Of a DNA stretch of 64,000 bases, positions 2,938 through 40,206 are shown one piece after another. Source of the stretch: an uncultured Flavobacteriaceae bacterium (lineage in GTDB: Bacteria > Bacteroidota > Bacteroidia > Flavobacteriales > Flavobacteriaceae); the NCBI GenBank assembly GCA_947494695.1, contig CANLWB010000002.1:62001-126000 (forward strand), read 5' to 3'. Positions within the stretch are counted from its first letter, which is position 1; each line of letters begins with the position of its first letter. The position numbers and the translations under genes were made by a program. Below the pieces are notes generated by a model. The model was not told the origin of the DNA, did not search any database, and saw only the letters and a program-made list of their open reading frames with translations.

Positions 2938-2943
2938 ACACAG

Positions 2944-5546: not shown

Positions 5547-5595
5547 ATACAATAAAGCATTGTCTTAAAGCATCATTTTTTCTTCTTTAAAATTC

Positions 5596-5674: not shown

Positions 5675-5745
5675 ACCATAACATAAGTAGGTTAAGTTCA
5701 TGGTAGATTTGGGGCAAAAAGGTGAACTAATGTTCACCTTTTTTT
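5675..5745 (+). ncRNA. Predicted small RNA, unit 3 of 3
   Basis: A 71-nt copy with the same 5' hairpin and linker as units 1 and 2. The terminator stem is GGTGAAC-taat-GTTCACC with a run of seven T. The stem is conserved while the tetraloop differs in all three units (atct, atta, taat). Each unit has its own promoter-like box, so these look like independently transcribed paralogues rather than one processed transcript. Confidence 0.75.
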
Positions 5746-6210
5746 ATGCCCTTATTTTATTGAAAAAATTTTATGTATTGGTGACTTCGAGGAGAAATAT
5801 TTATTTGTAAATGACCCGTGATGAACGAAATGTCTTTTGTGCTAATTAGTGCGAAACCCGTTTCCAAATCTTAGATTCGTTAAAAATCTTCAAAGTTTCT
5901 CTATTTGGAATCTTCGATTAGATGAATATTTTTAAGTTCGTCATTTTCAATCTTAGTAATAGAGCATTTTCCCTTGGCCTGACTCCGCAAAGTCTTAAAT
6001 ACAAGCAAAAAGTCTAAATAGCTGTAAATAGATACTGGATAAGTGTATTGTAATAACAGGAAGAGCAGAAATTTTTAGCGCAAAATCGGGAGACTTTGCG
6101 CAGCTTGAGTCCAAACTTGTAAAAAACATTAAACTATTTTAGAGATAACCTAACGGATATAAGAGTATTGGCTTGAAACCCATATAGGGTTTGCATATCC
6201 GGTCATTGTA
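5746..6210. other. Non-coding stretch with inverted repeats
   Basis: No supported gene. Visible structures are TTCCAAAT (5862-5869) with ATTTGGAA (5903-5910); a hairpin GCGCAAA/TTTGCGC (6078-6101); and a nested element CGGATAT (6154-6160) with ATATCCG (6195-6201) enclosing AAACCC/GGGTTT. The last lies 10 bp past the end of the LuxR-type regulator gene and may terminate or stabilise its transcript, though it lacks a T tract. Confidence 0.4.
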
Positions 6211-6852
6211 TTAATCTAAATATTTCATTTTTATCGCGTATTTTGTTAATCCGGCTAGATTTCGTACACCCAGTTTGGCGATTAAATTTTTTCGATAGCT
6301 CTCAATAGTATGTTTACTTAGAAACAATTGATCTGCAATTTCCTGGGTGGTAAATTCTTTTGCAATTAACGTAATCACATCGATTTCTCGTTCGGTTAAT
6401 TTGACGTTTTCTTCTTTCTTTTTAGAGAATTTATTTTCCATATAAATCGCAGTGATCTCCTGGGAAAAATATTTATCACCCTTCAAGATGGTTTCTATGG
6501 CTTTAAGTAGTTCTTTCTTCTCGGCATTTTTTGGCACGTAACCGTCTATATTACTTTCTATAAGTGTATCAATCATATCCGGGTTGGTATGCATACTTAC
6601 AGCCAGAATTTTTAAAGCACTATTTTTTTCTTTTAAAGTTTTAGTTAAGGACATGCCATCCATTTCGGGCATGGTGATATCTGTGATAACCAGGTCTATG
6701 CGTTCGTTACTATTAATGTCTATGTATTTTGCAACCTGAGCGCCATTTTTTGCCGTTAGTAAAATATTATATGCTTCTTGAGATTCGAAAATGCTTAACA
6801 AACCATCTAAAAACATTTTATGATCGTCTGCAACAATTAGATTATATTTCAT
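6211..6852 (-). CDS. NarL/LuxR-type response regulator
   Basis: A 213-residue regulator. The receiver domain has the acidic pair in VADDHKMF and the phospho-acceptor Asp58 in VITDITMPEMDG. The C-terminal LuxR HTH (about 148-205) reads LTEREIDVITLIAKEFTTQE and continues with the recognition helix LSKHTIESYRKNL. It overlaps the upstream histidine kinase gene by 11 bp, so the two are translationally linked and should form one phosphorelay. The input signal is unknown. Confidence 0.93.
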   Translation of the reverse strand: MKYNLIVADDHKMFLDGLLSIFESQEAYNILLTAKNGAQVAKYIDINSNERIDLVITDITMPEMDGMSLTKTLKEKNSALKILAVSMHTNPDMIDTLIESNIDGYVPKNAEKKELLKAIETILKGDKYFSQEITAIYMENKFSKKKEENVKLTEREIDVITLIAKEFTTQEIADQLFLSKHTIESYRKNLIAKLGVRNLAGLTKYAIKMKYLD

Positions 6853-9001: not shown

Positions 9002-9069
9002 AAACAGTTATTGATATAATAAAGGGCGCTTTTGTTTTGCTAAAAAAGCTATTTTACTTTATAAAACCA

Positions 9070-9102
9070 AAAACTCACTCTTAAAAAAGAATGAGTTTTT
9101 TA
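9070..9102 (-). terminator. Intrinsic terminator of the LipL32-like gene
   Basis: On the minus strand, AAAACTCATTCTT pairs with GAGTGAGTTTT across a T/A loop, followed by a T-rich tail. It lies 17 bp after the stop codon at 9119. Confidence 0.7.
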
Positions 9103-9118
9103 GTTTTTCAGTTAAGTT

Positions 9119-9802
9119 TTATAACCCTTTCTTTAATTCAGCAATGGTTTTAGCCATAACAACTCCAGGGAGTTTAATTGGTGCTCCAACTTGTGCTAAG
9201 AATGTTCCTTTTACTTCACCTCTTTTGTAAGTTGTAAATCCAATGCGATATAAACCTACTGTTAAGGCTTTTTGAGGATTACCAGCTTCACTCTTATACC
9301 TTAGTAACGAGTTGTACTTACTTCCACTAGGTTGTTTTGGCATTTCACTACTATCATCGTTACGTGCTAATACGAACCAGTTAGCACTGTTTACTGCGTC
9401 TTCACTAATTTTATCTTTGCTTATAATATCCGAGCGCTCTAAAGTAATGTATGTGTCGAAATACTCTTTTGAGCTTGCATTACTCTCGTAAGCCTTAGAG
9501 TTTATAGCCTTTTTAATTTTTGCTTTTCCAACCGGAGACATCATTCTTACTCCAAGTTCTGGAGCTACGGCAGGAATCCAAACGTAGATGTAATAGAATT
9601 TTTTATCCTCTTTTGTTTCATCTTCATTTCCTGGAGCTGCGTATCCCAAATAAGACACCATGTCTGTATAAGGAACTTTTATGGTTTTAGGCCCAATTTT
9701 CTTTTCTGTCAAGCCACCGAACTTTCCTAATTTTTGAGCATTTACAAAGCCCATGCTACCAATAACTAATAAGGCTATTGCAATTACATTTTTTGTTTTC
9801 AT
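9119..9802 (-). CDS. LipL32-like secreted surface protein
   Basis: A 227-residue exported protein with signal peptide MKTKNVIAIALLVIGSMGFV and a cleavage site near VNA-QK. Several blocks match what I remember of Leptospira LipL32: YYIYVWIPAV, GVRMMSP, KYNSLLR, and GLYRIGFTTYKRGEVKG near the end. LipL32 is the major Leptospira surface protein, and homologues are known in some marine Proteobacteria. Unlike LipL32 there is no lipobox Cys, so this form is probably periplasmic or soluble on the surface. It follows the membrane-protein gene at 9840-10259 after 37 bp, suggesting an operon. The function is unknown. Confidence 0.8.
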   Translation of the reverse strand: MKTKNVIAIALLVIGSMGFVNAQKLGKFGGLTEKKIGPKTIKVPYTDMVSYLGYAAPGNEDETKEDKKFYYIYVWIPAVAPELGVRMMSPVGKAKIKKAINSKAYESNASSKEYFDTYITLERSDIISKDKISEDAVNSANWFVLARNDDSSEMPKQPSGSKYNSLLRYKSEAGNPQKALTVGLYRIGFTTYKRGEVKGTFLAQVGAPIKLPGVVMAKTIAELKKGL

Positions 9803-11253: not shown

Positions 11254-14200
11254 ATGAATAAAAACCATTCTTTTACTATATACAACGCTTCTGCCGGGAG
11301 TGGAAAAACCTATACACTTGTAAAAGAATATTTAAAGATTTTACTTAAATCTAGTAACCTGGAGACGTTTAAACGCATTTTGGCCATTACGTTCACAAAT
11401 AAGGCAGTTGCCGAGATGAAAGAACGTATTATAGAAACGCTTCAAAAATTCTCCAACATTTCCATTTTAGATAAACCCGATAGTATGTTTCATTCTATTT
11501 GTGAAGCACTACAAATGGAGCCTATAGATCTTCATACAAAATCAAACAAATTATTAAATACAATTATACATAATTATGCTGCATTCGATATTTCTACCAT
11601 CGATGGTTTTACGCATAAATTAATTAGAACGTTTGCTTACGATTTAAAGTTACCCTTAAACTTTGAGGTTGAACTAGATCAGGAAGGTTTGTTGAATGAA
11701 GCCGTAAATAGCCTTATTGAAAAGGCGGGTACAGATGAAGCACTTACCAAACTGCTTATTGATTTTGCTATAGAGAAAGCCGATGAAGATAAGAGTTGGG
11801 ATGTGTCTTTTGATTTTAATAACATTGCAAAGTTACTGGTTAACGAAAATGATATTCCTTTTATAGAAGCGCTAAAAGATAAAACCTTAGAAGATTTTAA
11901 AACTCTAAAAGGGCAATTGAAGAAGGATGTGTTGGGGCTTGAAGATCTTGTAACTAAAAAAGCCCAGGACATATTAGCTTTAATTGATGCATCAGGCTTA
12001 GAGTTTAATGATTTTTCGGGAAGTTATTTACCAAAATATTTTAAGAACTTGGTCGATAAAAAGTTTGACCTGAATTTTTCGGCCAAATGGCAGGAAGATC
12101 TCGAAACGAAAGTGTTGTGCCCAAAACGTGTTACAGATGCCATAGCTTCTGTTATTGAACAAATTCAACCACAATTAGCCGATGGTTTTTATAGAACCAA
12201 AGCGCAGGTTTTTCAGCTTAAATTTTTAAAAGCGTTTTATAAAAATATAACTCCCTTGTCGGTTTTAAATGTGATTAATAAGGAGCTAACTGCTTTAAAG
12301 GAAGAGCAGAATAAAATGCTTATTTCAGAATTTAATTCCATTATAAGTAAAGAAATAAAAAACCAACCAACACCATTTATATATGAGCGTATTGGTGAAA
12401 AATTTAATCATTATTTTATTGATGAATTTCAGGATACGTCGGTAATGCAGTGGGAGAATTTAATTCCGCTCTTAGGAAATTCGTTGTCCTCGGAAACAGG
12501 AACTGTTATGTTGGTAGGTGATGCCAAGCAAGCCATTTATCGCTGGAGAGGGGGTAAAGCAGAACAATTTATAGGTTTGTTTAACGATGAGAATCCGTTT
12601 TATGTTGAAAAGCAAATCGAAAACCTTCCCACAAATTATAGAAGCAATAGAAGTGTAGTGGAATTTAATAATGGGTTTTTTAATCACCTTTCAAGTGAAG
12701 TATTTGGTGAACCCATATATAGAAACCTCTATGAAGAAGCACATCAAAATACATGTTTAGATGGTGCAGGTTATGTTGCATTATCCTTTTTAGATTTTGA
12801 TAAAGAAGATGATAGAGATGAATTGTATTCCGAACATGTTTTAAGAACGATTAGAGGTTGTTTGGATAATGGGTTTAAGTTTGAAGATATTTGTGTTTTA
12901 GTTCGAAAAAAGAGAGAAGGGGTTAGCGTTGCTCATTATTTGAGTCAACATGATGTCCCTATCGTATCATCAGAAACTTTATTGATTGGTAATTCGCCCG
13001 AAGTAAATTTTATAAATCATGTTTTAAGGCTTTTAATTCAGCCGAAGAATGATGAAGTGAAAATAGAAATCCTCAATTATTTAACAACGCTTTTTAAGGT
13101 TGAAGATAAACACGATTTCTTTGCGAAACATAAAGGCTTATCCATTGAGATGCTCTTTGAAGAATTGGAAATCTTCAATGTATTTGTTGACGGTGGCCAG
13201 TTATTGCAGTTACCTCTGTACGATTTAGCAGAGACTATTGTAAGAGGATTTAATTTGATAGAATCGTCGAATGCCTATGTTCAATTTTATTTAGATATTG
13301 TTTTAGACTTCACTCAAAAAAAAGGATCAGATATTTCAAGGTTTTTGGAATATTTCGATAAGAAAAAGGGAAGTTTGAGCATTGTATCTCCCAAAGGGCA
13401 GAATGCCGTTCAAATAATGACCATACATAAATCTAAGGGGTTAGAATTTCCTGTTGTCGTTTTTCCCTATGCCGATTTAGATATCTATCGGGAATTAGAC
13501 CCTAAGGAATGGTTTAAAATAGACGAAGCGAAGTATGCTGGTTTTTCACATACCTTATTGAATTATAGTAAAGATTTTGAAAATTACGGAGCGGTGGGGC
13601 AGCAAATTTATGCCAATCATCAATCGGAATTAGAACTGGATAATATCAATTTATTATATGTGGCATTAACGCGTGCAGTTGAACAATTATATGTGATTTC
13701 AAAAAAGGATATGTCTTCAAAAGGTATCGCAAATAATAAACGATATTCCGGTTTATTAATCAACTATTTGCAGCATTTAGGATTATGGAATGACACGCAA
13801 TCTGTTTATGCCTTTGGTGAGTCTGTTAAGATAAGTGAAGACTTGGGAACAACCAAAGAAACCGCATTTCAGCAAGAATTTATTTCTACAGCGAAAGAAA
13901 CACTTAATATTAAGGTGGTTACAAAATCCGGGTTACTTTGGGATACAAATCAACAGGAAGCGATTGAAAAAGGAAATCTTATCCACAATATGATGGCCCT
14001 GGTGAAAACGAAGGAGGATATAGATTTTGTTATCAATGATTTTTTGCGCATGTCATTGATTACTAATGAACAAACAAACGAGTTGAAACAAACCATTGTT
14101 AAAATTGTTGAGCACCCAAAATTAATAGCGTACTTCAATTCAGAGTATACCATATATAATGAGCGGGATATTATAACTAAAGAAGGAATCATCCTAAGAC

Positions 14201-14385
14201 CAGATCGTTTGGTAATAAACTCTAATAGAGAGGCGGTTATTATAGATTACAAAACGGGAGCAGAAGACAAGACACATTGGCAACAGTTACAATCGTATCA
14301 GGACGTACTGGAAGAGATGAAGATATCCGTAGTAAAGAAAACACTCGTATATATAGACGAAATTATTAGAGTAAAAGAACTGTAA
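11254..14385 (+). CDS. AddA-like UvrD-family helicase-nuclease
   Basis: A 1043-residue SF1A helicase for double-strand-break processing. Walker A is NASAGSGKT (residues 11-19), Walker B is FIDEFQDTS near 388, helicase motif VI is LLYVALTRAVEQLY near 805, and a C-terminal PD-(D/E)XK nuclease core IIDYKTG lies near 997 with a following QLQSYQ helix. This is the AddA/RecB architecture. The AddB-like partner is encoded at 16224 on the same strand, but an OmpA gene with its own promoter sits between them. Confidence 0.9.
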   Translation: MNKNHSFTIYNASAGSGKTYTLVKEYLKILLKSSNLETFKRILAITFTNKAVAEMKERIIETLQKFSNISILDKPDSMFHSICEALQMEPIDLHTKSNKLLNTIIHNYAAFDISTIDGFTHKLIRTFAYDLKLPLNFEVELDQEGLLNEAVNSLIEKAGTDEALTKLLIDFAIEKADEDKSWDVSFDFNNIAKLLVNENDIPFIEALKDKTLEDFKTLKGQLKKDVLGLEDLVTKKAQDILALIDASGLEFNDFSGSYLPKYFKNLVDKKFDLNFSAKWQEDLETKVLCPKRVTDAIASVIEQIQPQLADGFYRTKAQVFQLKFLKAFYKNITPLSVLNVINKELTALKEEQNKMLISEFNSIISKEIKNQPTPFIYERIGEKFNHYFIDEFQDTSVMQWENLIPLLGNSLSSETGTVMLVGDAKQAIYRWRGGKAEQFIGLFNDENPFYVEKQIENLPTNYRSNRSVVEFNNGFFNHLSSEVFGEPIYRNLYEEAHQNTCLDGAGYVALSFLDFDKEDDRDELYSEHVLRTIRGCLDNGFKFEDICVLVRKKREGVSVAHYLSQHDVPIVSSETLLIGNSPEVNFINHVLRLLIQPKNDEVKIEILNYLTTLFKVEDKHDFFAKHKGLSIEMLFEELEIFNVFVDGGQLLQLPLYDLAETIVRGFNLIESSNAYVQFYLDIVLDFTQKKGSDISRFLEYFDKKKGSLSIVSPKGQNAVQIMTIHKSKGLEFPVVVFPYADLDIYRELDPKEWFKIDEAKYAGFSHTLLNYSKDFENYGAVGQQIYANHQSELELDNINLLYVALTRAVEQLYVISKKDMSSKGIANNKRYSGLLINYLQHLGLWNDTQSVYAFGESVKISEDLGTTKETAFQQEFISTAKETLNIKVVTKSGLLWDTNQQEAIEKGNLIHNMMALVKTKEDIDFVINDFLRMSLITNEQTNELKQTIVKIVEHPKLIAYFNSEYTIYNERDIITKEGIILRPDRLVINSNREAVIIDYKTGAEDKTHWQQLQSYQDVLEEMKISVVKKTLVYIDEIIRVKEL

Positions 14386-14698
14386 CGTTTAATTAAGATT
14401 TATTTTTAATAGTATGTAATGACTTAGAATATGCGTTGTATTCGGTAAATTAAGGGTTGATTTTTTCTTAGTTTTAAAATGAATTACATGCGTTTTTGGC
14501 AAGTAGATATTAATATAATTGAACATTTTTTCTTATTCCAAAACGGGAATCGAGGGAATATATGTACAGCTTTTAGTAGTCACATCCATTGATGTTTAGG
14601 TTAGATTATTGTTGGGTTTACTCAAAATAAAAAAAAACAAGAAATTATCTGGACTATTGATAAACAAACGGAATGTGCTATTTTTTTATATATTTGTC
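14386..14698. other. Intergenic region before ompA, no gene seen
   Basis: AT-rich with no supported ORF and no clear terminator after the helicase gene. The promoter of the OmpA-family gene lies at its downstream edge. Confidence 0.5.
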
Positions 14699-24092: not shown

Positions 24093-24100
24093 TGGTTATG

Positions 24101-24143
24101 TGGAGAAGATCGGATTCGAACCGACGACCTCTTGACTGCCAGT
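24101..24143 (-). pseudogene. Displaced 3' half of tRNA-Ala (left attachment site)
   Basis: 43 bp matching the 3' half of the intact tRNA at 40133-40175, from the discriminator base to the anticodon loop, with 40 identical positions. Two of the three differences change T-stem pair 50-64 from G-C to U-A, keeping it paired. The third is in the T loop. The match stops abruptly at 24143. This is the expected footprint of tRNA-targeted integration, with the original 3' end left behind. Confidence 0.88.
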
Positions 24144-24256: not shown

Positions 24257-24291
24257 AAATGTTTGACCTATGTTTGACCCAATGTCAAACA
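24257..24291. repeat. Left arm-type integrase-site candidate
   Basis: Holds a 26-bp sequence (24257-24282) identical to 40060-40085. It contains two direct copies of TGTTTGACC; the second forms an inverted pair with GTCAAACA ending at 24291. It lies 113 bp inside the core. Repeated short sites inside both ends of a tyrosine-integrase element are typical arm sites. Confidence 0.65.
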
Positions 24292-27891: not shown

Positions 27892-30126
27892 ATGAAAAAC
27901 ATTATATTAACGCTACTTATAACTTTATCCTTTATTGGATTACAAGCACAAGAAGTTACTAGAAGTCTATTACATTTAGGAAATAAATTTGAGGTAAAAA
28001 TAGAACACTCAAAAAACAATTTGTTTATGGTGTATATTACCAATACAACAAATGATGGTTCGGCGAAAAACAAAAGTATTTCTAATACTTTCACAGAAGC
28101 AGAATTTCAAAAATGGGTAGCCAAAGAGTTTGATAAACTTATAAAAAACTATACGTTTAGTACAAAAACAATTCAAAGTTTACAGCTATCTAAAGAACAA
28201 GTGAATGAGTTAGATAAAATAACTGATGATATTTATAAAAATTTTACACCAGTAAAAGATACTCTAGTAGTACGTTTTAAAAAAGATGTAGAATATGGTT
28301 CTTTTAATGATTTCAAAATTAAGATAGATAATGGAGATTATAAAAAAGGAAAAAACTCTTATTACTTAATAGATAAAAAAGACTCTAAATATTACATAAA
28401 TATTGATACATTAAACTTCACAAACGAAAAAGAGTTTTTCGAACAATTAAATATTGCTACTTCCAAAGATACTGCTAAAATTTATAAACATTTATATCCC
28501 AAGGAAGAGTTGAAAAAAGCGGTAAACAAAGAATTTTCAAAAGTGAATTTTCAAAAAACTGCAGCATTACACAAAGGTTCATTTAAAAATGATGGTTTTC
28601 AGTTTATAGGAAATTATAGTGCAGAAGATGCCACAAAAGTCGTCTATGCTACTGAGATTTTACAGGAAGCAAAAAACAAATTCTTTACCCTACGTTTTTG
28701 TAGCAATAAAGAAGATACAGCTTGTATAAACACTATAAAATTAGATTTTGATGTAAGCAAAGAAAAGTTAAAAAGTGTTATTAATGAATCATTAAATCCA
28801 GATATAACAGAAGAGGAACATATTGTTTTATATTTAAAATGCCAAACATTAAACAATGATGTGTATGATAAAGTAATAAAAGCACCTGTACAAAAAGAAG
28901 TAGACTCTCTTATCAATCTTATAGAAAATGAGCGTACTAAATATTCTGGAATCCTAAAATTAAATAGCGAGGCTAAAATCTATAAAAAGCCTAAAACAGA
29001 GAATTTTACATTAATAAGTATAGAAGATACTAATAAGAAATTTATACCCGCTTATGCGTCTGTTCGTTTTTTTAACAAAAGAGCCAACAATATTGTTTTG
29101 GTGGGTAATGTTGTAGATTCATCTGGAGAGGTAATACAAGAACAGGTTTCTGTGAACTTTCAATGGAGTATTCCTATACGTAGTTTTAATAGTAATTTAA
29201 ATAGCATTAGCATTGTAGATTCTAAGGGCAAAACCATTGGGCACATAAACTACAATGAAGTGTTTCAATATTACCCTTACGAAGAAAAATTCAACTATGC
29301 TGTTAAAAACAAAGAGTATAGAGTTACAGCCAATGATAGTGTAAAAATAGAACAACGTAAACTAGCAAATTACTTTAATCCCATTATTTTTTCTGACTTT
29401 TTAGGATTAACCCCAGGTTCAGAAAATGGGTTACTATTTGCAGAAGGAAGAGTAAACATTCCAATGTGGATTTTTAACGTTAGAAAAACTTCTTTCTTTA
29501 CAGCACTACGTGCGGATATAAACCTTTCTTTATACAATGGTTTTAATGATACCTCTAGAGCAATCACAAAAACGAGCACAACAGCAATTAACTTAGCAAA
29601 TCCTGTTGATGTTAATTTGTTTGACCATGTAAAATTTGCTAATGTAATGGCAGGCATTTCTTTAGACGTTTTTAATTTAGAATTAAAAGGGTTAAGTACG
29701 GACATCAGTTTAGGTGGAGGTGTGCGTTATTATAGAGCCGCATTAAATCATACACAAACAAATACAACGGGTGCAGATATTATTACAACAGACCAATTAA
29801 ATGCTTTGGCTCCAGAGTTAAATATTAATTTTCAAATACGTCCACAAACTAATTTTGGTGCAGATTTAAATCTTTCATATAGTTGGTTGAATGCAAGAGG
29901 TTCTAGAAACGATACTCCTATAAATATTTTAGGAGACACAAAAGACAAACGTATGTTTCGTCTAAACCTAGATATTTTCTCTAAAATAAACCCAGATAAT
30001 TCTAATGGTGGGGTATATGGTAGAATAGGAGGTTTTTATAGCATAGCTTCTAAAGACTTTTACCCTCAAATTATGGTGGGTTATGCTACCAATTTATCGT
30101 CTTTTGTAAATAAATTTAAGAAGTAA
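27892..30126 (+). CDS. Large secreted protein, probably outer-membrane associated
   Basis: 744 residues, family not recognised. The signal peptide is MKNIILTLLITLSFIGLQAQ. The first 480 residues are Lys- and Asn-rich and look like repeated small alpha/beta units. From about 490 the alternating hydrophobic pattern and Gly/aromatic content (for example DISLGGGVRYYR and GGVYGRIGGFYS) suggest an outer-membrane beta-barrel. It is a lone gene on its strand in this part of the island and may be cargo affecting the cell surface. Confidence 0.6.
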   Translation: MKNIILTLLITLSFIGLQAQEVTRSLLHLGNKFEVKIEHSKNNLFMVYITNTTNDGSAKNKSISNTFTEAEFQKWVAKEFDKLIKNYTFSTKTIQSLQLSKEQVNELDKITDDIYKNFTPVKDTLVVRFKKDVEYGSFNDFKIKIDNGDYKKGKNSYYLIDKKDSKYYINIDTLNFTNEKEFFEQLNIATSKDTAKIYKHLYPKEELKKAVNKEFSKVNFQKTAALHKGSFKNDGFQFIGNYSAEDATKVVYATEILQEAKNKFFTLRFCSNKEDTACINTIKLDFDVSKEKLKSVINESLNPDITEEEHIVLYLKCQTLNNDVYDKVIKAPVQKEVDSLINLIENERTKYSGILKLNSEAKIYKKPKTENFTLISIEDTNKKFIPAYASVRFFNKRANNIVLVGNVVDSSGEVIQEQVSVNFQWSIPIRSFNSNLNSISIVDSKGKTIGHINYNEVFQYYPYEEKFNYAVKNKEYRVTANDSVKIEQRKLANYFNPIIFSDFLGLTPGSENGLLFAEGRVNIPMWIFNVRKTSFFTALRADINLSLYNGFNDTSRAITKTSTTAINLANPVDVNLFDHVKFANVMAGISLDVFNLELKGLSTDISLGGGVRYYRAALNHTQTNTTGADIITTDQLNALAPELNINFQIRPQTNFGADLNLSYSWLNARGSRNDTPINILGDTKDKRMFRLNLDIFSKINPDNSNGGVYGRIGGFYSIASKDFYPQIMVGYATNLSSFVNKFKK

Positions 30127-30249: not shown

Positions 30250-30393
30250 ATGTGGAAAGACAGCGAAACAGATATTGACTTATTAGACTTTGACTATTTA
30301 ATAAGTATGACAAAAAACATCATAGAAAATGATGAACTTACCCCCAGCAGTTTAAGAAGAAATAGAAAACCTAACATAATTTTGATGTACTAA
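30250..30393 (+). pseudogene. N-terminal remnant resembling a KAP-type P-loop NTPase
   Basis: A 47-codon frame beginning MWKDSETDIDLLDFDYL and continuing ENDELTPSSL. From memory this is the start of KAP-family P-loop NTPases, where a Walker A motif (GxxGxGKS) normally follows within a few residues. Here it runs into RRNRKPNIILMY and stops, so the ATPase body is lost. It lies 11 bp before the zinc-ribbon gene. It is best read as scar tissue from cargo replacement at this site. Confidence 0.5.
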
Positions 30394-30404: not shown

Positions 30405-30629
30405 ATGCTGGATTTAAATTATTTTGAAATTCAAATATCTTGTCCTAAATGCAAGTATACTATTGATATATACCTTATTGATGTTAAAAATGAAGATGTA
30501 GTCTTTTGTCACAACTGTAAAGCATCAATCCAATTAAAAGATAGTGACGCTTCATCCTATAAAGGAATTAAAGAAATCAATAATACTTTTAATGAATTGA
30601 AAAATACACTAAAAAAACTAGGAAAATAA
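30405..30629 (+). CDS. Zinc-ribbon small protein
   Basis: A 74-residue protein with two Cys pairs, CPKC (residues 13-16) and CHNC (35-38), forming a likely zinc ribbon. A helical, Lys-rich C-terminus (NNTFNELKNTLKKLGK) follows. One base separates its stop from the ATG of the PD-(D/E)XK nuclease gene, so the two are translationally coupled and probably act together. No named family. Confidence 0.72.
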   Translation: MLDLNYFEIQISCPKCKYTIDIYLIDVKNEDVVFCHNCKASIQLKDSDASSYKGIKEINNTFNELKNTLKKLGK

Positions 30630-30630
30630 A

Positions 30631-31584
30631 ATGTATTATAATCATAATTTGAGAACTGAGCTACAGGAATGGAAAAGTAGACTAGTGAGAGCTGATTTTA
30701 ATCTGTTTGGAAATCAATTAAAGTTCTTTTTTGATTTTATAGAAAATAATAAGCTTTTATACGGATTGCTAAAAGAGGCTAATCATAAATATAAGTTTGA
30801 AAAAACTTTTTTTGACAATTTGGATAAAAGTGAAGGGTATTTTGATGTTGAATTTAAAAGCCCTGCTGAACAAGCTGCCTACTCCTATCAATTAATTCAA
30901 CATTGCGTTTCTATTGTAGGTTTTTCTAAAATAAATCAAAACTATTATTATGGAATAGGTGAATATAATGCTCAAGAAATTGTTATAATTGAAAATATAA
31001 TTACACCTATTATTTATTTTTTTCACGATGTACTGAACAAATCTAACTCAACAACTTATTTATTGGAAAAGTACAAAAGAAGAGTAGAATGGTTTACCAA
31101 GAGCAGTCTAATTGACAAATATAAATGTGCTACCAAGAATTATGAAGATATTTTAGAAGAAGATTTAAAACTATTTCTTTTTGACCAAGGAATAGATTAT
31201 CCTTTTTCCACTCCTAAGTCTGCTTCTGGAAGAGCAGATATAATAGGTGCAATTGATACTGAAAATCCATTAATTATTGAAATTAAAATACTAGACAAAG
31301 AAAAGAACTATGGATTAGAAAGGGTAAAATCTGGATTTCATCAAATTGTAAATTACACTAATGACTATAATAAAGATGATGGCTACTTAGTGATATTTAA
31401 TTTTGATAAAGTTAAGTATGACTTTAAACTTGACAACATCAATTCATTTCCTCCTATGTTAACACTAAACAACAAAACTTATTATTTCATAATAATTAAT
31501 ATGTATGACAAAGAAACTGCAAGTAAATTAGGTCGTATTGAGAAAATTGAAATTTCGGAAGGTCAATTATTAAAAAGTAATTAA
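30631..31584 (+). CDS. PD-(D/E)XK nuclease-like protein
   Basis: 317 residues. The N-terminal 165 residues are helical with no recognised domain. The C-terminal region has a restriction-nuclease-like core: Glu176/Glu177 on a helix, Asp203 in SGRADIIGA, Glu217 and Lys219 in PLIIEIKI, and Gln238 in GFHQIVNYTND, followed by a hydrophobic strand GYLVIF. This order (E, D, ExK, Q) is the PD-(D/E)XK signature. It is coupled to the zinc-ribbon gene and lies 94 bp before the Gabija-like ATPase gene, on the same strand. It may be an accessory effector of the defence locus. Confidence 0.72.
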   Translation: MYYNHNLRTELQEWKSRLVRADFNLFGNQLKFFFDFIENNKLLYGLLKEANHKYKFEKTFFDNLDKSEGYFDVEFKSPAEQAAYSYQLIQHCVSIVGFSKINQNYYYGIGEYNAQEIVIIENIITPIIYFFHDVLNKSNSTTYLLEKYKRRVEWFTKSSLIDKYKCATKNYEDILEEDLKLFLFDQGIDYPFSTPKSASGRADIIGAIDTENPLIIEIKILDKEKNYGLERVKSGFHQIVNYTNDYNKDDGYLVIFNFDKVKYDFKLDNINSFPPMLTLNNKTYYFIIINMYDKETASKLGRIEKIEISEGQLLKSN

Positions 31585-31678
31585 TAAGGAAAGTATAATT
31601 ACATCCAATCTAATTTACTATGTAGTTTATATGGTTTTACAATGATGAGATTACAATTATTATCACAAAACAAACTCT

Positions 31679-33370
31679 ATGAAAATATCATATGTGAAAA
31701 TTGAAAACTATAGAAATTTTCAAAATTTCGAAATAACACTACCTAAATTGTCTATTCTCATTGGTGAAAATGACTCAGGTAAAAGTAATTTCATAAATGC
31801 CCTAAAACTACCTCTTTCTGGTAATGAATTTGAGTTTGGTTCTAGAAGGTTATACCCTTCTGATTTCAATACAAATACTATAAAAAAATTCTATAATGAC
31901 TTTCCTAGCTCTGTAGAAAAGAATACAATTATTCCAATAATAAAAGTAACTATAAGATTTGATGAGATTAATGATGAGGATAACTATGCTAAGGCAATAG
32001 TGGGGAAATGGATAACAGAACTTGAAGGAGAGGATATTTATGAAATACAATATGTCTTTAAACCCAAAAATAATGATGAATTTATAGAATACATTGAGCT
32101 TCAATTGAAAGAAAAAACTAAAAACGAAGAGCCTGTATTGCCAACAGAACTTTATGAATACGCTGTTGTATCAACTAATAATAGAAAATCAATCTCATTT
32201 CATGAATTAAAACATATATCAATAAATATAATTAATGCAGAAAGAGATGACTTCTCCGTATCCAATACAATGAAGTCAAATAGTGTATTGGCAAAACTTT
32301 TAGAGAAAGAATTAAATGAGCAAGAGAAATCTCAGATTCACAATGCATATAAGAAGTTTTTTCAAGAAATAAAGAATCAAGATAACTTTAGTAAAATTTT
32401 CAAAAAAGATGAAAGTTTTAAAAACATTGATGACCTAATAGATAATATAGATTGTATTCCTAATCTAGCAAACTTGAAAAATATTCTCTCTAATATAACT
32501 TTAGGTTATGGAAATGAATTTCTTTACCAAAAAGGATTAGGTGTTAGGAATTTAATTTTCATTTTACTTTTTTTTCAACATTATAAAAACAAGGAAGAAA
32601 ACTTTAATTTGAACTGTATTGAAGAACCAGAATCTCATCTAAGCACAAATAATCTTAATTTAATTTTAGATTATATAATGAAGACTAACAGTAAATTAAA
32701 TGATTCTAGCTTATCTCAAACTATAATTACTACTCATAAACCAGAAGTAATTAATAAGTTAAAATTCAACAATGTCATTGCTTTAAGTAATAATAAAGCT
32801 ATTTCTTTTCAAGATATAGACAAAGATTTAGTTAGCTATTTAGCAAAAAGACCAAACTTTGATATTCTAAAACTCCTCTTTTCTAATAAGATAATACTTG
32901 TAGAAGGAACTACAGAGGAAATGTTGATAAATACTTATCTTGACATTGAAAAGGATAGTCTCTATAATATAGATGTACTAAGTATAGGTCATAAAGGGTT
33001 TAGGAAATTTCTAGATGTTTGGCTAAAATTAAACGAAAAAAACCTAAACAAAAAAATAGGTATAATTAGAGATTTTGACAACCAACCTAATGCTAAAAAT
33101 GAGCATGACAAATATCACAATGCCAATACAATTTATGTGAGCACCAGTAGTTTGTATACTTTAGAAGATGATTTAGTAAATACTGACAAAAATTACGAAC
33201 AAATATCAAAACATTTTGAGCTTGGAGATTCAAATGCTGATGAAGTATCTAAATACATGAAAGATAATAAAGCAGAAAGTATGCTCTCACTTTGTAATGC
33301 TATTTTAAATAAAGACATTACAATCAAACTTTCAAAACATATTTCTAATGTTATTAAGTTTTTAAAATGA
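31679..33370 (+). CDS. gajA: GajA-like OLD-family ATPase with TOPRIM nuclease domain
   Basis: 563 residues, close to the known size of GajA. Walker A is GENDSGKS (29-36), an ABC-like signature YQKGLGVRN lies near 283-291, Walker B is NCIEEPESHL (312-321), and the H-loop is TTHKPE. The TOPRIM domain starts at ILVEG (406-410, catalytic Glu409), continues with RDFD (Asp465, Asp467), and ends with an acidic TLEDD (494-498). Together with the next gene this is the Gabija layout, in which GajA nicks DNA and is controlled by nucleotides. The last 4 bp overlap the helicase start (ATGA). Confidence 0.85.
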   Translation: MKISYVKIENYRNFQNFEITLPKLSILIGENDSGKSNFINALKLPLSGNEFEFGSRRLYPSDFNTNTIKKFYNDFPSSVEKNTIIPIIKVTIRFDEINDEDNYAKAIVGKWITELEGEDIYEIQYVFKPKNNDEFIEYIELQLKEKTKNEEPVLPTELYEYAVVSTNNRKSISFHELKHISINIINAERDDFSVSNTMKSNSVLAKLLEKELNEQEKSQIHNAYKKFFQEIKNQDNFSKIFKKDESFKNIDDLIDNIDCIPNLANLKNILSNITLGYGNEFLYQKGLGVRNLIFILLFFQHYKNKEENFNLNCIEEPESHLSTNNLNLILDYIMKTNSKLNDSSLSQTIITTHKPEVINKLKFNNVIALSNNKAISFQDIDKDLVSYLAKRPNFDILKLLFSNKIILVEGTTEEMLINTYLDIEKDSLYNIDVLSIGHKGFRKFLDVWLKLNEKNLNKKIGIIRDFDNQPNAKNEHDKYHNANTIYVSTSSLYTLEDDLVNTDKNYEQISKHFELGDSNADEVSKYMKDNKAESMLSLCNAILNKDITIKLSKHISNVIKFLK

Positions 33371-34773
33371 TTGAAATTCAAGTTGCTGGTGCAGGAGCAG
33401 GAAAAACATATAGTCTCGCAGAAAGATTAAGTCAACTAGAAATTAATGCAAAAGACAATAAGTTAATATATGCCATAACATATACTAATTCAGCAAAAAA
33501 TAAAATCAAAAATACTCTAATTGATTTAAAGGGCTTTAACCATCAAAATATTATTGTTGAAACTATCCATAGTTTTCTGTTAAATGAAATTATTTACCCT
33601 TATAGTTCTTATATATTGAATGAAATTTATACAAAATCTGTTTCATTTCCTTTACCTGTTAAACCACAATTCAAAAATTTTAAGAAAAAACAATTAAGAG
33701 AATACGAGATTATACATAACGAAGATGTATTCAAAAAATCAAAAATTATTATTGATGTAACCAATAGCAAACATTCAAACCGTAATAAACGTAGAAAAGT
33801 AAATAAAGTTATTGAGTTGATTAAATCTAGAGTTCAAAATATTTTTATTGATGAAGTTCAAGACTTAGATGAAGACACTATTAAGGTTTTTGATGTTTTG
33901 GGTAATGCAGGTTTAAACATTTATATGGTTGGTGACCCTAAACAAGCAATTAAATTTAACAGAGCTTTTAGTGATTATATTAATCAATGTATTGAAAAAA
34001 AATCTAAAGAATATAATATACTTAAACCAATAAATAATACAAGAAGAGTTCCAAGTAGTATACTTTCTATATCTAATCTATTTTGTCCGGAAGGACAAAT
34101 ACAATCAAACATTTTCAAAAAAACTGGTTCTGTTTCTTACTGTTTTGGAAATAAAGAACAATTAAACAACATAAGCTCTAATTTTTTAAATAAGCAATCT
34201 TTAATATACATTGAGAAATCCCATGAAAGTTATCTAACCAAAAAAAATAATAGCACTTTGCATTTACCTGTTACTTTAGAAGATAAAATAAGGAACCTTA
34301 AAAAATTTAGACATTTAGATTCAGGCTTATTTTTAGAATCAATTTTATTAGAAATAAAAAGAAAATCTATAATACTTTCTCCTAAAGCAATTATTAGTGA
34401 AATGACATCCAAGTATGAAATAGACTTGAGTAAGCCTGAATATGCCGAATTAATTCAAAATTTAGAAAAATTCAAAAGTTTGGAAGAATATGAAATTGTA
34501 TCAAGTATAGATTCTGTAAAAGGCTTAGAGTCTGATTTATGTGTTTTTATTCTAAATGAGAATATGTTCAATTACCTTTTCAAAAAAATCACTAAAGCAA
34601 AGTACCATAATAAAATTTGGAATAAATTATATGTCGCTCTAACCAGAACTTCGAATGAATTAATATTCTTTATAGATATGAATTTGTTTTCAAAAACTAA
34701 CTTATCAGAAATTGAAGCTTCCTTTGCATCTCTTGAAATATCAAAATTAGATTTAGAAAATACACCCACTTAA
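33367..34773 (+). CDS. gajB: GajB-like UvrD-family helicase
   Basis: 468 residues, near the usual GajB size. SF1A motifs in order: Walker A GAGAGKT (8-14), motif II FIDEVQDLD near 160, motif III MVGDPKQAI near 187, motif IV NTRRVPSS, motif V SVKGLESD, and motif VI KLYVALTRT near 420. There is no nuclease domain, unlike AddA. Its start overlaps the stop of the GajA-like gene by 4 bp, so the proteins are made together. A 7-bp hairpin (TACACCC/GGGTGTA) spans its stop codon. Confidence 0.85.
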   Translation: MIEIQVAGAGAGKTYSLAERLSQLEINAKDNKLIYAITYTNSAKNKIKNTLIDLKGFNHQNIIVETIHSFLLNEIIYPYSSYILNEIYTKSVSFPLPVKPQFKNFKKKQLREYEIIHNEDVFKKSKIIIDVTNSKHSNRNKRRKVNKVIELIKSRVQNIFIDEVQDLDEDTIKVFDVLGNAGLNIYMVGDPKQAIKFNRAFSDYINQCIEKKSKEYNILKPINNTRRVPSSILSISNLFCPEGQIQSNIFKKTGSVSYCFGNKEQLNNISSNFLNKQSLIYIEKSHESYLTKKNNSTLHLPVTLEDKIRNLKKFRHLDSGLFLESILLEIKRKSIILSPKAIISEMTSKYEIDLSKPEYAELIQNLEKFKSLEEYEIVSSIDSVKGLESDLCVFILNENMFNYLFKKITKAKYHNKIWNKLYVALTRTSNELIFFIDMNLFSKTNLSEIEASFASLEISKLDLENTPT

Positions 34774-34885: not shown

Positions 34886-35407
34886 CTACTTGAAAAAAGA
34901 GATAATTTTCTCAGCTAGTGAATCATCCAATCCCGTATTGAAGTTAGTTTGAAAAAAATAAGGTTTTTGACTTTCTAAAAAATCATCTTCATCATCTAAT
35001 ATGGCATATTTAATTGATGACTTGAACTTATTTCTATTATCATCTAACCATTCTTGAATTTCAAGCCCTCTAGGTATTGGATTTTCCATATCATATGAAG
35101 ACGAAATAGGAGTTTTTCCATAGATTTTACCCTTAAACCCAACTGCATAGAATATATTTTGCAACTCTTGTAAATCTCTTAGTAATCTCCAAGATGAAGA
35201 AATAATAATTCTAGCTTCAGTTTCATTAACTATTTTATTTAAATACTCTATACAAACAGGGTCAAAATATCTTTTTATTGACTTGTCAAGAGCTTTACAA
35301 CTATTTGAATTATACCATTGCGTGCTATTTAAAACACCATCTATGTCAAGAAACAAAATATTTATAATAAAATTCTCACTGAGACTAAACAATATTTCCA
35401 ACTCCAT
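34886..35407 (-). CDS. HAD-fold phosphatase-like protein
   Basis: 173 residues with all HAD motifs: FLDIDGVLNS (Asp21, Asp23), IISSSWR (motif II) and AILDDEDDF (motif IV). The pattern SSSWRLLRD resembles the HAD domain grouped with Swiss Army Knife RNA-repair proteins, which is suggestive next to defence genes. Its start lies inside the 3' end of the ATPase gene (23-bp overlap in another frame), so it is translationally coupled to that gene. It converges with the GajB-like gene. Confidence 0.75.
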   Translation of the reverse strand: MELEILFSLSENFIINILFLDIDGVLNSTQWYNSNSCKALDKSIKRYFDPVCIEYLNKIVNETEARIIISSSWRLLRDLQELQNIFYAVGFKGKIYGKTPISSSYDMENPIPRGLEIQEWLDDNRNKFKSSIKYAILDDEDDFLESQKPYFFQTNFNTGLDDSLAEKIISFFK

Positions 35408-36257
35408 TTTGGCTGAAATTTTTGGGATGAATTAGTTTTTCGAGTTGCTCTTTCTTGTTAATAAATTGAGCCTGTAAGCTCTGTTGAAAAGAGGCATGTT
35501 CTTTATAAATTTCGGATAACTCTGAAATGGATAATGCGTTGTTTATCTTTTCTAGCACTTCTTCACTTGTAACTGGTTTTGCATGGCACCATTTCAAGAG
35601 TTTTTCACCTGTTTTAGTAGTAATTACGAATTCCTGTGAAGAAGAAAACAGATTAGTTCTGTCTTTAGAAACCTTACATTTATGTTGGTTGTTTACTAGT
35701 TCAAAATTTACAATTAGTTCGTACTCATACCCCTGTCTAGTTATTTCCTTTGTACCATGCTTAACAACTTCCATTCTTCCATTACTTCCAACATTTAAGG
35801 AGTAATCTACTTTTCTTCTTGTAGTAGTTATAATATGACAACTAGATTGTAATACCCTGTCTATAAATGCTTGGTGTCTTGCACCTACTTTACTCCAATC
35901 TTGAAACTTTGAGCCTAATTTTGCATGGATATCTAAACAGCCTCCTTTACCATTCCACTCTTGGCTTATACTGTCTATAATTATAACTTCTATATTTTCT
36001 GATTTTTCACAGACTTCAATAGCCTCTATGTAATGTTCTGGACTGTAAGGGGCTTTTAAGTCTAAGACATTAAAATTACCTAAGTTTGAATATAAAGATG
36101 CACTACTATTTTCTGTATCTATTACAGCTATTTTACTCCAATCTTGTGTTATTCCATAAGCTAATAGTAAAGCACTATAAGTCTTACCAAATCCACTAGC
36201 TCCGGATATTCCTAACCTGAGCTTTACATTTTGTCTTTTACTTTGTTTTAAGTTCAT
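35385..36257 (-). CDS. RecA-fold ATP-binding protein (AAA_24-like)
   Basis: 290 residues. Walker A is GASGFGKT (19-26) and Walker B is EVIIIDSIS near 95. A mid-protein segment TTTRRKVDY is seen. The shape resembles phage and plasmid AAA_24 NTPases linked to recombination or replication. The C-terminus HPKNFSQNGVGNIV shares FSQNGV with the protein at 26960-27355. It is followed by a coupled HAD gene, while the integrase gene lies about 310 bp upstream. It is likely a replication or recombination factor of the island. Confidence 0.75.
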   Translation of the reverse strand: MNLKQSKRQNVKLRLGISGASGFGKTYSALLLAYGITQDWSKIAVIDTENSSASLYSNLGNFNVLDLKAPYSPEHYIEAIEVCEKSENIEVIIIDSISQEWNGKGGCLDIHAKLGSKFQDWSKVGARHQAFIDRVLQSSCHIITTTRRKVDYSLNVGSNGRMEVVKHGTKEITRQGYEYELIVNFELVNNQHKCKVSKDRTNLFSSSQEFVITTKTGEKLLKWCHAKPVTSEEVLEKINNALSISELSEIYKEHASFQQSLQAQFINKKEQLEKLIHPKNFSQNGVGNIV

Positions 36258-36568: not shown

Positions 36569-37789
36569 CTATAAATCCATTAGTTTTCTATTCTCTTTAT
36601 CTAAGGTTTCATTGTCAAAATCCTTTAAATAAGACATTGTAATGTTTACATCTGCATGACCCATCATTTCAGATATTTTTTCAATTGGTGTTCCGCTCAT
36701 TTTTAGAATAGTGGCAAAACTATGTCTAGCAACATATGAGGTTAAAGGCTTTTCAATATTAGCCAACTCCCCAAGTTCTTTGAGTCTTTTATTATACTTA
36801 CTAAGCACTTTACACTTTCTATAATGTATTTGCTGGGCATTTAACCCCTCTTTTAATAGTATAGGAAAAACAAATTGAGTATGTCTGTTCTGGCTTTTAT
36901 AATAGTCCAATATAGCTTGAGCTTTGTCAATAATTTCAAGGTTAAATTTTCCTTTAGTTTTAGACCTCGTATATTGCATTCTACCATTTTGGATATTAGA
37001 CCACTTTAAAAGCATCATATCTTGAAAATTCATCCCTCTTGTGTAAATAGAGAACATAAAGTAATTATGAGTTTCTATTAAGTGTGGATGTTCATTTAAG
37101 TCAATATCCCTAATGCTTCTAAACTCCTCTATGGTTAAAGCTCTTTTAACAGGCTTAGATTTTAGCTTAGATATTTTATAATCTCTAAAAGGATAAATCT
37201 CTTGAGGTATCAACTTTCTTGTGATAGCCTTATTAATAATAGACCTCAGCTCTCTCATTTTAAAAGCAATACCACCATTCTGATTACCATTCATTCTCAG
37301 GAAAGCCTCATATTTTTCTAAAAATTCTGGAGTTACACTCTGAAAAGGAATATGATTGCCCTTGAACTTTAACAATGAATCTTTGGTGCTTTTATATGCA
37401 TTAGCATTGCTAATTCTATTTGCATCAACCATTTCTTTTATTATCATATCAAAAAACTCTAGCACATCACTGGTTTTAGTGAGTTTAGTACCTCTGAACT
37501 TTTCTTCAAATTGAGCTAGGGTAAAATCTACTTTTTGTGCTAAAAAGTCATCTACTATTTTTAAAGCTTTTTGCTCTAGCTTTAGTAATATTCTATTTCT
37601 TTGATTCCAATTAGAGTGTGACTTCTTGAATCTCTTATTATTAAAATCCCAATCTTTCTCAAAGCAACTTACACCAAGTGTAATAGTTTTGGATTTCCTA
37701 TCTTTTACAATACGCATAACAATGGGATACTCTCCTCTCGCATTGGCTTTCTTCCTAAGTAGTATATTAATGCTTGCCATTGTTTGCAT
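36569..37789 (-). CDS. Tyrosine recombinase (island integrase)
   Basis: 406 residues in the layout of Bacteroidota phage and ICE integrases: arm-binding N-terminal domain (MASINILLRKKANARGEYPI), core-binding SAM-like domain (about 110-205), and catalytic domain. Catalytic features are an Arg in FSIYTRGMNFQDM, an Arg in YVARHSFAT, a His in MMGHADVN, and the Tyr nucleophile in TMSYLKDF. A start at the second Met (37780) is equally plausible. It is expected to act on the tRNA-Ala core and the arm repeats. It is transcribed away from the right end. Confidence 0.93.
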   Translation of the reverse strand: MQTMASINILLRKKANARGEYPIVMRIVKDRKSKTITLGVSCFEKDWDFNNKRFKKSHSNWNQRNRILLKLEQKALKIVDDFLAQKVDFTLAQFEEKFRGTKLTKTSDVLEFFDMIIKEMVDANRISNANAYKSTKDSLLKFKGNHIPFQSVTPEFLEKYEAFLRMNGNQNGGIAFKMRELRSIINKAITRKLIPQEIYPFRDYKISKLKSKPVKRALTIEEFRSIRDIDLNEHPHLIETHNYFMFSIYTRGMNFQDMMLLKWSNIQNGRMQYTRSKTKGKFNLEIIDKAQAILDYYKSQNRHTQFVFPILLKEGLNAQQIHYRKCKVLSKYNKRLKELGELANIEKPLTSYVARHSFATILKMSGTPIEKISEMMGHADVNITMSYLKDFDNETLDKENRKLMDL

Positions 37790-37845: not shown

Positions 37846-38736
37846 TTAAAAATTAATTAGTTGTAAATACTTCTTTTGCAAGAGACCTTTTAGAAGGGAT
37901 TTAACTTGAAGTAAATTATGTTTGTTAAGTAACTCTTGATAGGCTCTAATATGCCTCATTTTGGTTTGATTTGACCTACTAGATATAACTCTCTCCCAAT
38001 ACGAATAGCTATTATATCTTATGAGCTTGCATAAGTCATTTTCAGGTATTGTAGACTCATCATAGCTGTCTACAATGGTCATTTCATTAAACCTTTGCAT
38101 AAGGCATATAAACAACTTTCTAAGTTTTTGTTTATCCTTAAGGTCTGTAATTTTATATATACCATACTTTTGAAACTCCTTAGCCTTTAGAAACCTAATT
38201 TCAAATCTTAAAATATTTTGAGGTAAACTATATTGTCTAGCCTTGTCATATATCTTAATTACAAAGTTGTGATAGTCAAATTGCCTTAGTTCACCTCTAC
38301 CATTAAAAACCCTATTATGATTAGCTCCTTTTTGTTTATGCATTAATACATTATTTCTTATAATTTGTTGAGCTGAAACAGGTGTTTCTATATTAAATCC
38401 AAACTCAAACTGAGTAAGGTTTGCTATATCCACATCTATAAGCTTGCTTGAAATATAATCCAACATGTAACAGAGCTTACTGTATCCAAAGTCATCATGG
38501 TTATGTGCGTCTTGACTAAACTTATCATTATAAGCTTTATGAATAGAATTATACACATAGCCATGTTTGGAAGTTACCTTTACTTCTAAACCATTAAAAC
38601 AAGTTCTATAAGGATATTTGATTTGTCCTGTATGCAATCCAAATAGAGTGTCTAATTCTTTAAAGTTTTCTTCTTGGCAAACAAAGTGTTCAAACTTATC
38701 CTTATCTCTGTAAAACAACCTTACAAAATCTACCAT
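37846..38736 (-). CDS. Replication-initiator-like protein
   Basis: 296 residues. The pattern LTQFEFGFNIETP, then VIKIYDKARQYSL, then ILRFEIRFLKAKEFQKYGI resembles rolling-circle replication initiators of small Bacteroidota elements and filamentous phage. Tyr in IKIYDKA is a candidate nucleophile. No clear HUH metal motif is seen, so the assignment is moderate. It overlaps the excisionase-like gene by 7 bp and precedes the integrase, so the three form one mobility operon. Confidence 0.6.
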   Translation of the reverse strand: MVDFVRLFYRDKDKFEHFVCQEENFKELDTLFGLHTGQIKYPYRTCFNGLEVKVTSKHGYVYNSIHKAYNDKFSQDAHNHDDFGYSKLCYMLDYISSKLIDVDIANLTQFEFGFNIETPVSAQQIIRNNVLMHKQKGANHNRVFNGRGELRQFDYHNFVIKIYDKARQYSLPQNILRFEIRFLKAKEFQKYGIYKITDLKDKQKLRKLFICLMQRFNEMTIVDSYDESTIPENDLCKLIRYNSYSYWERVISSRSNQTKMRHIRAYQELLNKHNLLQVKSLLKGLLQKKYLQLINF

Positions 38737-39056
38737 AACTCATTAATATTTGAGTTAATACTATTTTGGTTAAGTTGTTCTATGATTTCAGAATCTGGAG
38801 CAACCCTACTAGTTTCAATCCAAGCATCTACTTCAATTCTTTTAAAGTAAATTTTCTTGCCTCCGGGATTATAAAAAGGAATTTCCTTTTTACTAGTTAT
38901 TTTGTATACAGCAGATTTTGATAGCCCTAAATAATCAGCTAGTTCGTCTACTGTTATAAATTCTTTTAATGGCTTTAGAATTTCAGCCCATTCTTGTCTT
39001 ATTAATTGTATTTGTTCATTTGTAAACACATCACTTTGAATGTTTTCCATAATCAT
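38730..39056 (-). CDS. Excisionase-like HTH protein
   Basis: 108 residues with a MerR-like excisionase HTH: ITVDELADYLGLSKSAVYKI followed by the wing GGKKIYFKRIEVDAWIE. This is the standard HTH_17 form that begins many Bacteroidota element operons. It overlaps the replication-initiator-like gene by 7 bp. It is probably a recombination directionality factor or regulator. Confidence 0.85.
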   Translation of the reverse strand: MIMENIQSDVFTNEQIQLIRQEWAEILKPLKEFITVDELADYLGLSKSAVYKITSKKEIPFYNPGGKKIYFKRIEVDAWIETSRVAPDSEIIEQLNQNSINSNINELW

Positions 39057-40059: not shown

Positions 40060-40085
40060 AAATGTTTGACCTATGTTTGACCCAA
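40060..40085. repeat. Right arm-type integrase-site candidate
   Basis: A 26-bp sequence identical to and in the same orientation as 24257-24282, containing TGTTTGACC twice (11-bp pitch). It lies 71 bp inside the core at the right end. The third, inverted half-site seen on the left is absent here. Confidence 0.65.
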
Positions 40086-40121: not shown

Positions 40122-40132
40122 ATTATTACTAG

Positions 40133-40206
40133 TGGAGAAGAGCGGACTCGAACCGCCGACCTCTTGACTGCCAGTCAAGCGCTCTAGCCAACTGAGCTAC
40201 ATCCCC
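40133..40206 (-). tRNA. tRNA-Ala (anticodon GGC)
   Basis: 74 nt, CCA not encoded. The acceptor begins GGGGAUG and contains the G3-U70 pair that identifies alanine tRNAs. The D stem is GCUC/GAGC. The anticodon loop CUGGCAG sits on a CUUGA/UCAAG stem and gives anticodon GGC. The T loop is UUCGAGU. The 3' half (40133-40175) was most likely supplied by the island; the 5' half is chromosomal. Confidence 0.95.

Follow-up and report, generated by a model that had tools for sequence, protein, structure and literature searches.

A mobile zinc-ribbon and PD-(D/E)XK nuclease gene pair, a candidate defence module, beside a Gabija system in a Flavobacteriaceae genome

The DNA considered here is a stretch of 64,000 nucleotides (the window) from an uncultured Flavobacteriaceae bacterium (GenBank assembly GCA_947494695.1, contig CANLWB010000002.1, positions 62,001 to 126,000 of the forward strand). 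Four adjacent genes on its forward strand encode a small zinc-ribbon protein (ZnR), a nuclease of the PD-(D/E)XK type, and the GajA and GajB proteins of a Gabija defence system. The ZnR and nuclease genes form a conserved, dedicated two-gene operon that is transferred as a whole and occurs independently of Gabija. The arrangement in the window is best explained as two independent systems lying side by side as cargo of a probable integrative element, namely Gabija and an uncharacterised ZnR-nuclease module that would act against phages or other mobile elements; the probability given to this reading is about 0.6.

The ZnR gene (30405-30629, forward strand) encodes 74 amino acids with a Cys4 zinc-ribbon pattern (CPKC...CHNC; C13, C16, C35 and C38) and an aspartate, D46. 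It is followed after 1 bp by the nuclease gene (30631-31584, forward strand), whose 317-residue product combines an N-terminal helical region (about residues 1-166) with a C-terminal PD-(D/E)XK domain carrying the catalytic residues E172, D203, E217-x-K219, Q238 and Y242. A gap of 94 bp (31585-31678) separates this pair from gajA. The gap contains promoter-like matches, and a promoter scan of the region gave no excess over shuffled sequence (39 sites; shuffles 35.3 +/- 6.9); it is compatible with separate transcription units for the two gene sets. An earlier reading of the window made from its letters only, referred to here as the sequence-only reading, had described these four genes, and their places, sizes and spacings were confirmed.

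A further 35 places encoding the nuclease were found, three of them with a broken or truncated gene, and they are spread over about ten phyla (Bacteroidota, Ignavibacteriota, Planctomycetota, WOR-3, Pseudomonadota, Chloroflexota, Bacillota, Spirochaetota, Actinomycetota and Dormibacterota). Five of these places are plasmid records and 30 are loci from a genome collection, with one Flavobacterium and one Melioribacteraceae genome counted within the 30. It is nevertheless a rare gene, present in 3 of 395 sampled genomes of the window's phylum (the window's own included) and in 1 of 12 in the genus (again its own). No match was obtained in phage records or in viral contigs, the latter scanned with short patterns. 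Nine weak matches from the nuclease search were dropped as chance (E of 2.7e-4 or worse, several with internal stops), while locus L002 was kept.

The nuclease is preceded by a ZnR gene at 29 of the 35 places, comprising 27 of the 30 genome loci and two of the five plasmid loci (L012 from Streptomyces phaeoluteigriseus and L015 from Polaromonas plasmid pPNAP03). The genome loci lacking it are L023, L040 and the truncated L042, and the plasmid records lacking it are L013, L014 and the frame-broken L016. Over 29 intact pairs, including that of the window, the distance between the genes ranges from -4 to +25 bp with a median of 2. A ZnR profile run on 355 genomes of the phylum (E<=1e-6; up to 16 candidates scored per genome) matched in G000, G127 and G409 only, each time adjoining the nuclease, and the nuclease profile matched the same three genomes in the 395-genome sample, which may differ in genomes from the sample of 355. 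Distances among the ZnR proteins are correlated with those among the nucleases (28 pairs; Mantel r=0.85, with 0 of 5000 permutations as high). Three of the loci have further peculiarities. The ZnR open reading frame of pPNAP03 (L015, 5359-5601) abuts the nuclease gene and has no gene in the plasmid table used, which describes itself as incomplete. A WOR-3 locus (L023) has a larger gene in the place of ZnR (96-1490) that looks by eye to be of the GIY-YIG (T5orf172) type. The nuclease fragment of L042 (6766-7591) lies about 100 bp behind a tRNA-Asn gene, as a remnant at a likely integration site.

Comparison of flanking DNA shows how the pair travels. Stretches of 14.6 kb from Flagellimonas (L029) and Leeuwenhoekiella (L030) have a single region of similar DNA (6405-7603, 83% identical; blastn E<=1e-5), which consists of the ZnR and nuclease genes and runs from 3 bp before ZnR to 15 bp past the nuclease. 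Zoogloea (L026) and Achromobacter (L027) likewise have the pair alone in common by blastn. Because only this segment is common to each of the two genus pairs, with unrelated flanks, the two genes move as a unit. Two Flavobacterium species (L034 and L035) have a 3.5-kb segment in common at 98.8% identity (6112-9630), which holds the pair together with a 275-residue protein and a protein of 303 or 361 residues; on the right the segment stops near the edge of one contig, and it looks like a recent transfer. In the nuclease tree, a Leptospirales sequence falls among 11 Bacteroidota sequences (100/100), and this group sits within a broader clade (100/100) that is mostly Bacteroidota and includes a Neobacillus sequence. 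The sequences from Planctomycetota and Ignavibacteriota are paired at 92/95, under the level starred in the tree.

The nuclease active site and the zinc site are strictly conserved. E172, D203, K219, Q238 and Y242 are invariant in all 33 aligned nucleases (window included; the fragment L042 and the frame-broken L050 were left aside), and position 217 is glutamate in 22 and aspartate in 11. The sequence-only reading had picked out Asp203, Glu217, Lys219 and Gln238, and these assignments were correct. The four ZnR cysteines and D46 are invariant in 29 of 29 aligned ZnR proteins, an alignment that omits L035 as a near-copy of L034. The nuclease therefore has the D...(D/E)xK motif with helix glutamate and glutamine that is expected of the PD-(D/E)XK superfamily. 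When its C-terminal profile was compared with a set of 28 PDDEXK_3 proteins encoded in genomes of the order, the hhalign score was 26.1; 150 column shuffles gave a mean of 12.3 and a maximum of 20.5, so that none reached 26.1, and the reversed profile scored 16.2. In this alignment E172, D203, E217-x-K219, Q238 and Y242 fall in register with the corresponding residues of PDDEXK_3 (PF13366). That family itself was matched by 1 of 33 nuclease members (E=0.091), and the present module differs from it in the extra N-terminal helical region and in the ZnR partner. The AlphaFold model of the nuclease has a mean predicted local distance difference test score (pLDDT) of 80.7 and a predicted template modelling score of 0.55, and in its C-terminal half a helix (171-185), a strand (216-222), a second helix (229-245) and a second strand (250-257) are predicted. 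For ZnR, the predicted structure has short strands followed by a long C-terminal helix (50-73). Zinc ribbons are among its top Foldseek matches (Kti11, S27/LysW type and archaeal ribosomal proteins), but no match reaches E<=0.001.

Within the libraries (PADLOC, Pfam, NCBIfam and PHROG) and literature searched, the pair is unnamed. The sequence-only reading had suggested that it could be a new module, and the searches favour this. For the window nuclease, searches of Pfam, NCBIfam and PHROG gave nothing at E<=1; across 33 nuclease members 12 Pfam families were matched at E<=0.1, and no family matches more than two members (best E=0.002, FeoB_Cyto). PADLOC likewise gave nothing at E<=1 for the window ZnR, and its weak zinc-ribbon matches in the libraries lie under the curated cut-offs where such cut-offs exist. 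The one PADLOC match of the nuclease is to the candidate PDC-M14B, a component of PDC-M14, and is confined to the N-terminal region of about 100 residues (E=1.3e-5 for the window and 1.3e-12 at best; one model is matched by as many as 13 of the 33 members). In the window protein it spans about 100 of the model's 267 positions, less than half, and leaves the C-terminal nuclease uncovered, so that the protein is not a full-length PDC-M14B. No PDC-M14 locus was found in 149 genomes of the family at E<=1e-5. Nor was any found at E<=1e-10 in 296 genomes from the phylum to which G767 belongs, a search in which no positive control matched and which does not imply absence. Three weak PDC-M14B matches were obtained in 10 genomes, and two of these (L098 and L099) lie inside the nuclease itself by their coordinates.

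Shedu was also considered as an identity for the nuclease. Its protein likewise places a PD-(D/E)XK nuclease (SduA_C, PF14082) behind a variable N-terminal region, according to PMC12839542. The assignment was rejected, as there is no profile similarity to four Shedu proteins, and the 12 Pfam families found across the 33 members do not include PF14082. Shedu is not known to have a ZnR gene. The pair is not described in the literature searched, including the available parts of PMC12839542 and PMC12988326; the search covered few subscription papers.

The two downstream genes have the properties of Gabija. According to PMC10781630, Gabija operons encode two proteins, GajA and GajB; the residues that define the GajA TOPRIM site were taken from the same source. 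The gajA gene of the window (31679-33370, forward strand; 563 residues) encodes an ABC ATPase (GENDSGKS) joined to a TOPRIM nuclease of the OLD type, class 2, with the glutamate in LVEG (407-410) and the DxD motif as DFD (465-467). It overlaps by 4 bp the gajB gene (33367-34773, forward strand; 468 residues), which encodes a UvrD-like superfamily 1 helicase with a Walker A motif (AGAGAGKT) and a DExQD box (DEVQD). The sequence-only reading had called this pair Gabija from its sizes, motifs and overlap, and PADLOC agrees, matching GajA (E=1.3e-204) and GajB (E=1.8e-135) over nearly their full lengths; Pfam finds AAA_15, OLD-like TOPRIM and UvrD-helicase domains. From its sequence the system appears to be a divergent Gabija, because phmmer against the PDB gives solved GajA structures as the best matches to GajA but aligns them with no more than its first 63 residues (E=1.2e-8), finds UvrD/PcrA helicases and no GajB for GajB, and because close GajA relatives were not seen. 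Relatives of this GajA were absent at E<=1e-40 from 298 other genomes of the family and from plasmids, at E<=1e-20 from phages, and from a pattern scan of viral contigs.

The genes around the pair at other loci were compared with known defence genes. Up to three called genes of at least 95 amino acids on each side were taken at 26 of the 35 places, giving 137 proteins; L012-L016, L023, L024, L034 and L042 were set aside (plasmid records, messy open reading frame calls in GC-rich DNA, near-duplication, truncation or a frame-broken gene). At E<=1e-10 these neighbours matched 230 different PADLOC models, against 9 matched by 107 control proteins; such counts are inflated by proteins that match many models at once (46 at E<=1e-8 for HmaA alone). 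An identified PADLOC-type neighbour is present in at least seven of the 26 loci (L025, L026, L027, L028, L031, L032 and L047). This is a lower bound, because only 20 of the 137 neighbours were scanned singly and further matches stand without a locus (PDC-S22, PDC-S01, AbiEii, and AbiH in Pfam). The pair thus recurs beside known defence genes above the background of a control drawn from one genome. The clearest case is L025, where the pair is embedded in an Hma operon in one tight run: HmaA (510-3935), ZnR (3943-4182), nuclease (4192-5169) and HmaB (5166-7934). Elsewhere the neighbours include an LmuA-like protein (L027), QatB (L031), PDC-S32 directly upstream of the pair (L026) and a PD-T4-1 match (L028). 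In L032 an MmeI-type enzyme follows 89 bp downstream, with the MmeI structure matched end to end (E=4.6e-253), and HsdM/HsdS-like open reading frames are seen by eye upstream in L047.

On the reading that Gabija and an independent ZnR-nuclease module lie side by side, the PD-(D/E)XK domain would cut DNA with the help of metal ions, as is usual for its family. With less certainty, ZnR may bind the nuclease, probably at the N-terminal helical region, and may either supply target recognition or hold the nuclease off until invading DNA is met; the target would be phage or plasmid DNA. Lacking a methylase partner, the module would have to tell self from non-self by a feature of the invading DNA or of the infection itself. 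A more specific proposal is that the two genes make up a previously unnamed, widespread immune system. Its effector would be the PD-(D/E)XK nuclease, with the stand-alone zinc ribbon serving as sensor or as specificity factor, and it would be able to plug into other systems, being embedded in Hma and standing beside Qat and Gabija. This proposal is tentative, and we put it a little below even odds.

Several observations weigh against a defence module of this kind. Among the three called genes on each side, a PADLOC-type neighbour was identified in only seven of the 26 loci; many neighbours are not defence genes, many loci show no recognised defence gene at all, and the control proteins came from eight hand-picked stretches of one genome, that of the window. 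The sequence-only reading had taken it as grounds for refutation if the upstream genes lay mostly beside unrelated housekeeping genes. PADLOC-type neighbours are identified in at least seven of the 26 loci, and one locus, L022, looks like a housekeeping setting, since the pair there seems to lie beside genes for glyceraldehyde-3-phosphate dehydrogenase and phosphoglycerate kinase (matched in Pfam, with the locus assigned indirectly). ZnR may not be essential everywhere, because an intact-looking nuclease stands without an adjacent ZnR at L013, L014, L023 and L040. The hhalign probability for the likeness to PDDEXK_3 is low (12%), and for this reason its weight is placed on the shuffles and on the catalytic register. 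The nuclease model has the expected order of helix, strand, helix and strand, but it is unreliable at the active-site loop (191-209, pLDDT<50), and Foldseek found no match for it in the PDB at E<=0.001.

A different explanation for the window is that the four genes form an extended Gabija in which ZnR and the nuclease are accessory subunits working with GajAB. The sequence-only reading had weighed this against two systems side by side, and the evidence now favours the latter; we regard an extended Gabija as very improbable. The four genes do lie adjacent on one strand in the window, and a Gabija-type pair is also found near ZnR and the nuclease in L047. There, a GajA-like ATPase gene overlaps a UvrD-like gene; the pair was found through PADLOC and confirmed by a search with filters off, and a GajB match among the 137 neighbour proteins (E=5.2e-222) is assigned to this locus because its helicase is the one answering to the window's GajB. 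L035 possibly holds another pair of the Gabija or OLD type (12284-14582), in which a UvrD-like gene (nearest PDB sequences UvrD/PcrA helicases) lies on the opposite strand, 4.7 kb from ZnR and the nuclease, behind a partial open reading frame of 178 amino acids with a DxD motif by eye and no PDB match. However, the order of the gene sets is reversed in L047, with the Gabija-type pair upstream, and its GajA is 21% identical to that of the window. Beyond L047, no GajA-plus-helicase pair was recognised at the other 34 of the 35 places when the GajA and GajB proteins of the window and L047 were used as queries over up to about 7 kb on each side (less in several loci). L032 has a lone ATPase of 559 amino acids, for which OLD nucleases are the nearest matches (E=1.1e-28) and no partner helicase was seen. 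In addition, the 94-bp gap parts the two gene sets in the window, and it is the ZnR-nuclease pair alone that is common between genera. ZnR and the nuclease are thus not components of Gabija, and both recur without it.

The main rivals to a defence module concern what the pair itself does. A toxin-antitoxin system, with ZnR as antitoxin and the nuclease as toxin, would stabilise mobile elements and may defend by abortive infection. The small first gene that overlaps or touches a larger second one suits this idea, as do the occurrence on plasmids and islands and locus L050, where ZnR is intact and the nuclease is frame-broken. The four intact-looking nucleases that lack an adjacent ZnR count against an obligate antitoxin, however, and embedding in the Hma operon is better suited to a defence accessory; we consider this explanation unlikely. 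Much the same standing is given to a role in restriction, where the nuclease would be an alternative restriction subunit for nearby methylase systems (Hma, type IIG or HsdMS) or a modification-dependent, type IV-like enzyme. It would account for HmaA and HmaB flanking the pair in L025, for the MmeI-type enzyme of L032 and for the HsdM/HsdS-like frames of L047. A type II restriction-modification system would have a cognate methyltransferase beside the nuclease; methylases are near the pair in L025 and L032, but no methylase was found among the scanned element proteins of the window, and N6_Mtase is matched by two of the 137 neighbours (among the best 25 of 103 Pfam families). Least favoured of the three is a role outside defence, as a housekeeping nuclease or one that maintains elements through replication or recombination. 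Such a role would explain why many neighbours are not recognised defence genes and why some loci are on plasmids, but housekeeping fits poorly because the module is rare, patchy and horizontally moved, and the lack of matches in phage records and pattern-scanned viral contigs also speaks against this role.

If the ZnR-nuclease pair is a true defence system, it adds a compact nuclease module of ~1.2 kb, for which PADLOC-DB 2.0.0 offers no more than a partial match and in which the small zinc gene can easily be missed. It would also pose the question of how a nuclease without a methylase partner spares its host and whether the zinc ribbon decides this, a question that can be tested directly with the families and catalytic residues described above.

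Gabija and the ZnR-nuclease pair are probably cargo of a 16.0-kb integrative element. Its probable attachment site and right end is a tRNA-Ala gene (anticodon ggc; 40132-40206, reverse strand), and its probable left end is a 44-nt copy, 93% identical, of one end of that gene (24100-24143, forward strand). A tyrosine integrase (36569-37789) and an HTH_17 protein that may serve as an excisionase (38730-39056) are encoded on the reverse strand. The interval from 30 to 35 kb has a G+C content of 26%, compared with about 30% for most of the remaining element and 34-35% for much of the flanking DNA. Just upstream of ZnR, an open reading frame of 47 amino acids (30250-30393, forward strand) matches the first 35 residues of the KAP NTPase of a Qat locus (43% over 35 residues; tblastn E=0.003 over the window). 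It is likely the remnant of a lost QatA-like gene and would therefore be a sign of cargo turnover in the element.

Further features of the element were noted. Partial second copies of the same tRNA-Ala end occur on the same contig in G683, G685 and G686, which suggests that this site is a hotspot of integration within the genus. An exact 26-nt direct repeat lies inside both ends of the element (24257-24282 and 40060-40085) and holds an internal repeat of GTTTGACC or TGTTTGACC; these repeats are possible arm sites of the integrase. A 744-residue protein (27892-30126) has a start that resembles a signal peptide by eye and has no clear match in Pfam, PHROG or NCBIfam. On the strand opposite to gajB, a HAD_SAK_2 gene overlaps a gene for an AAA_24/Sak4-like ATPase (34886-36257), so that genes of a phage type are also present in the element.

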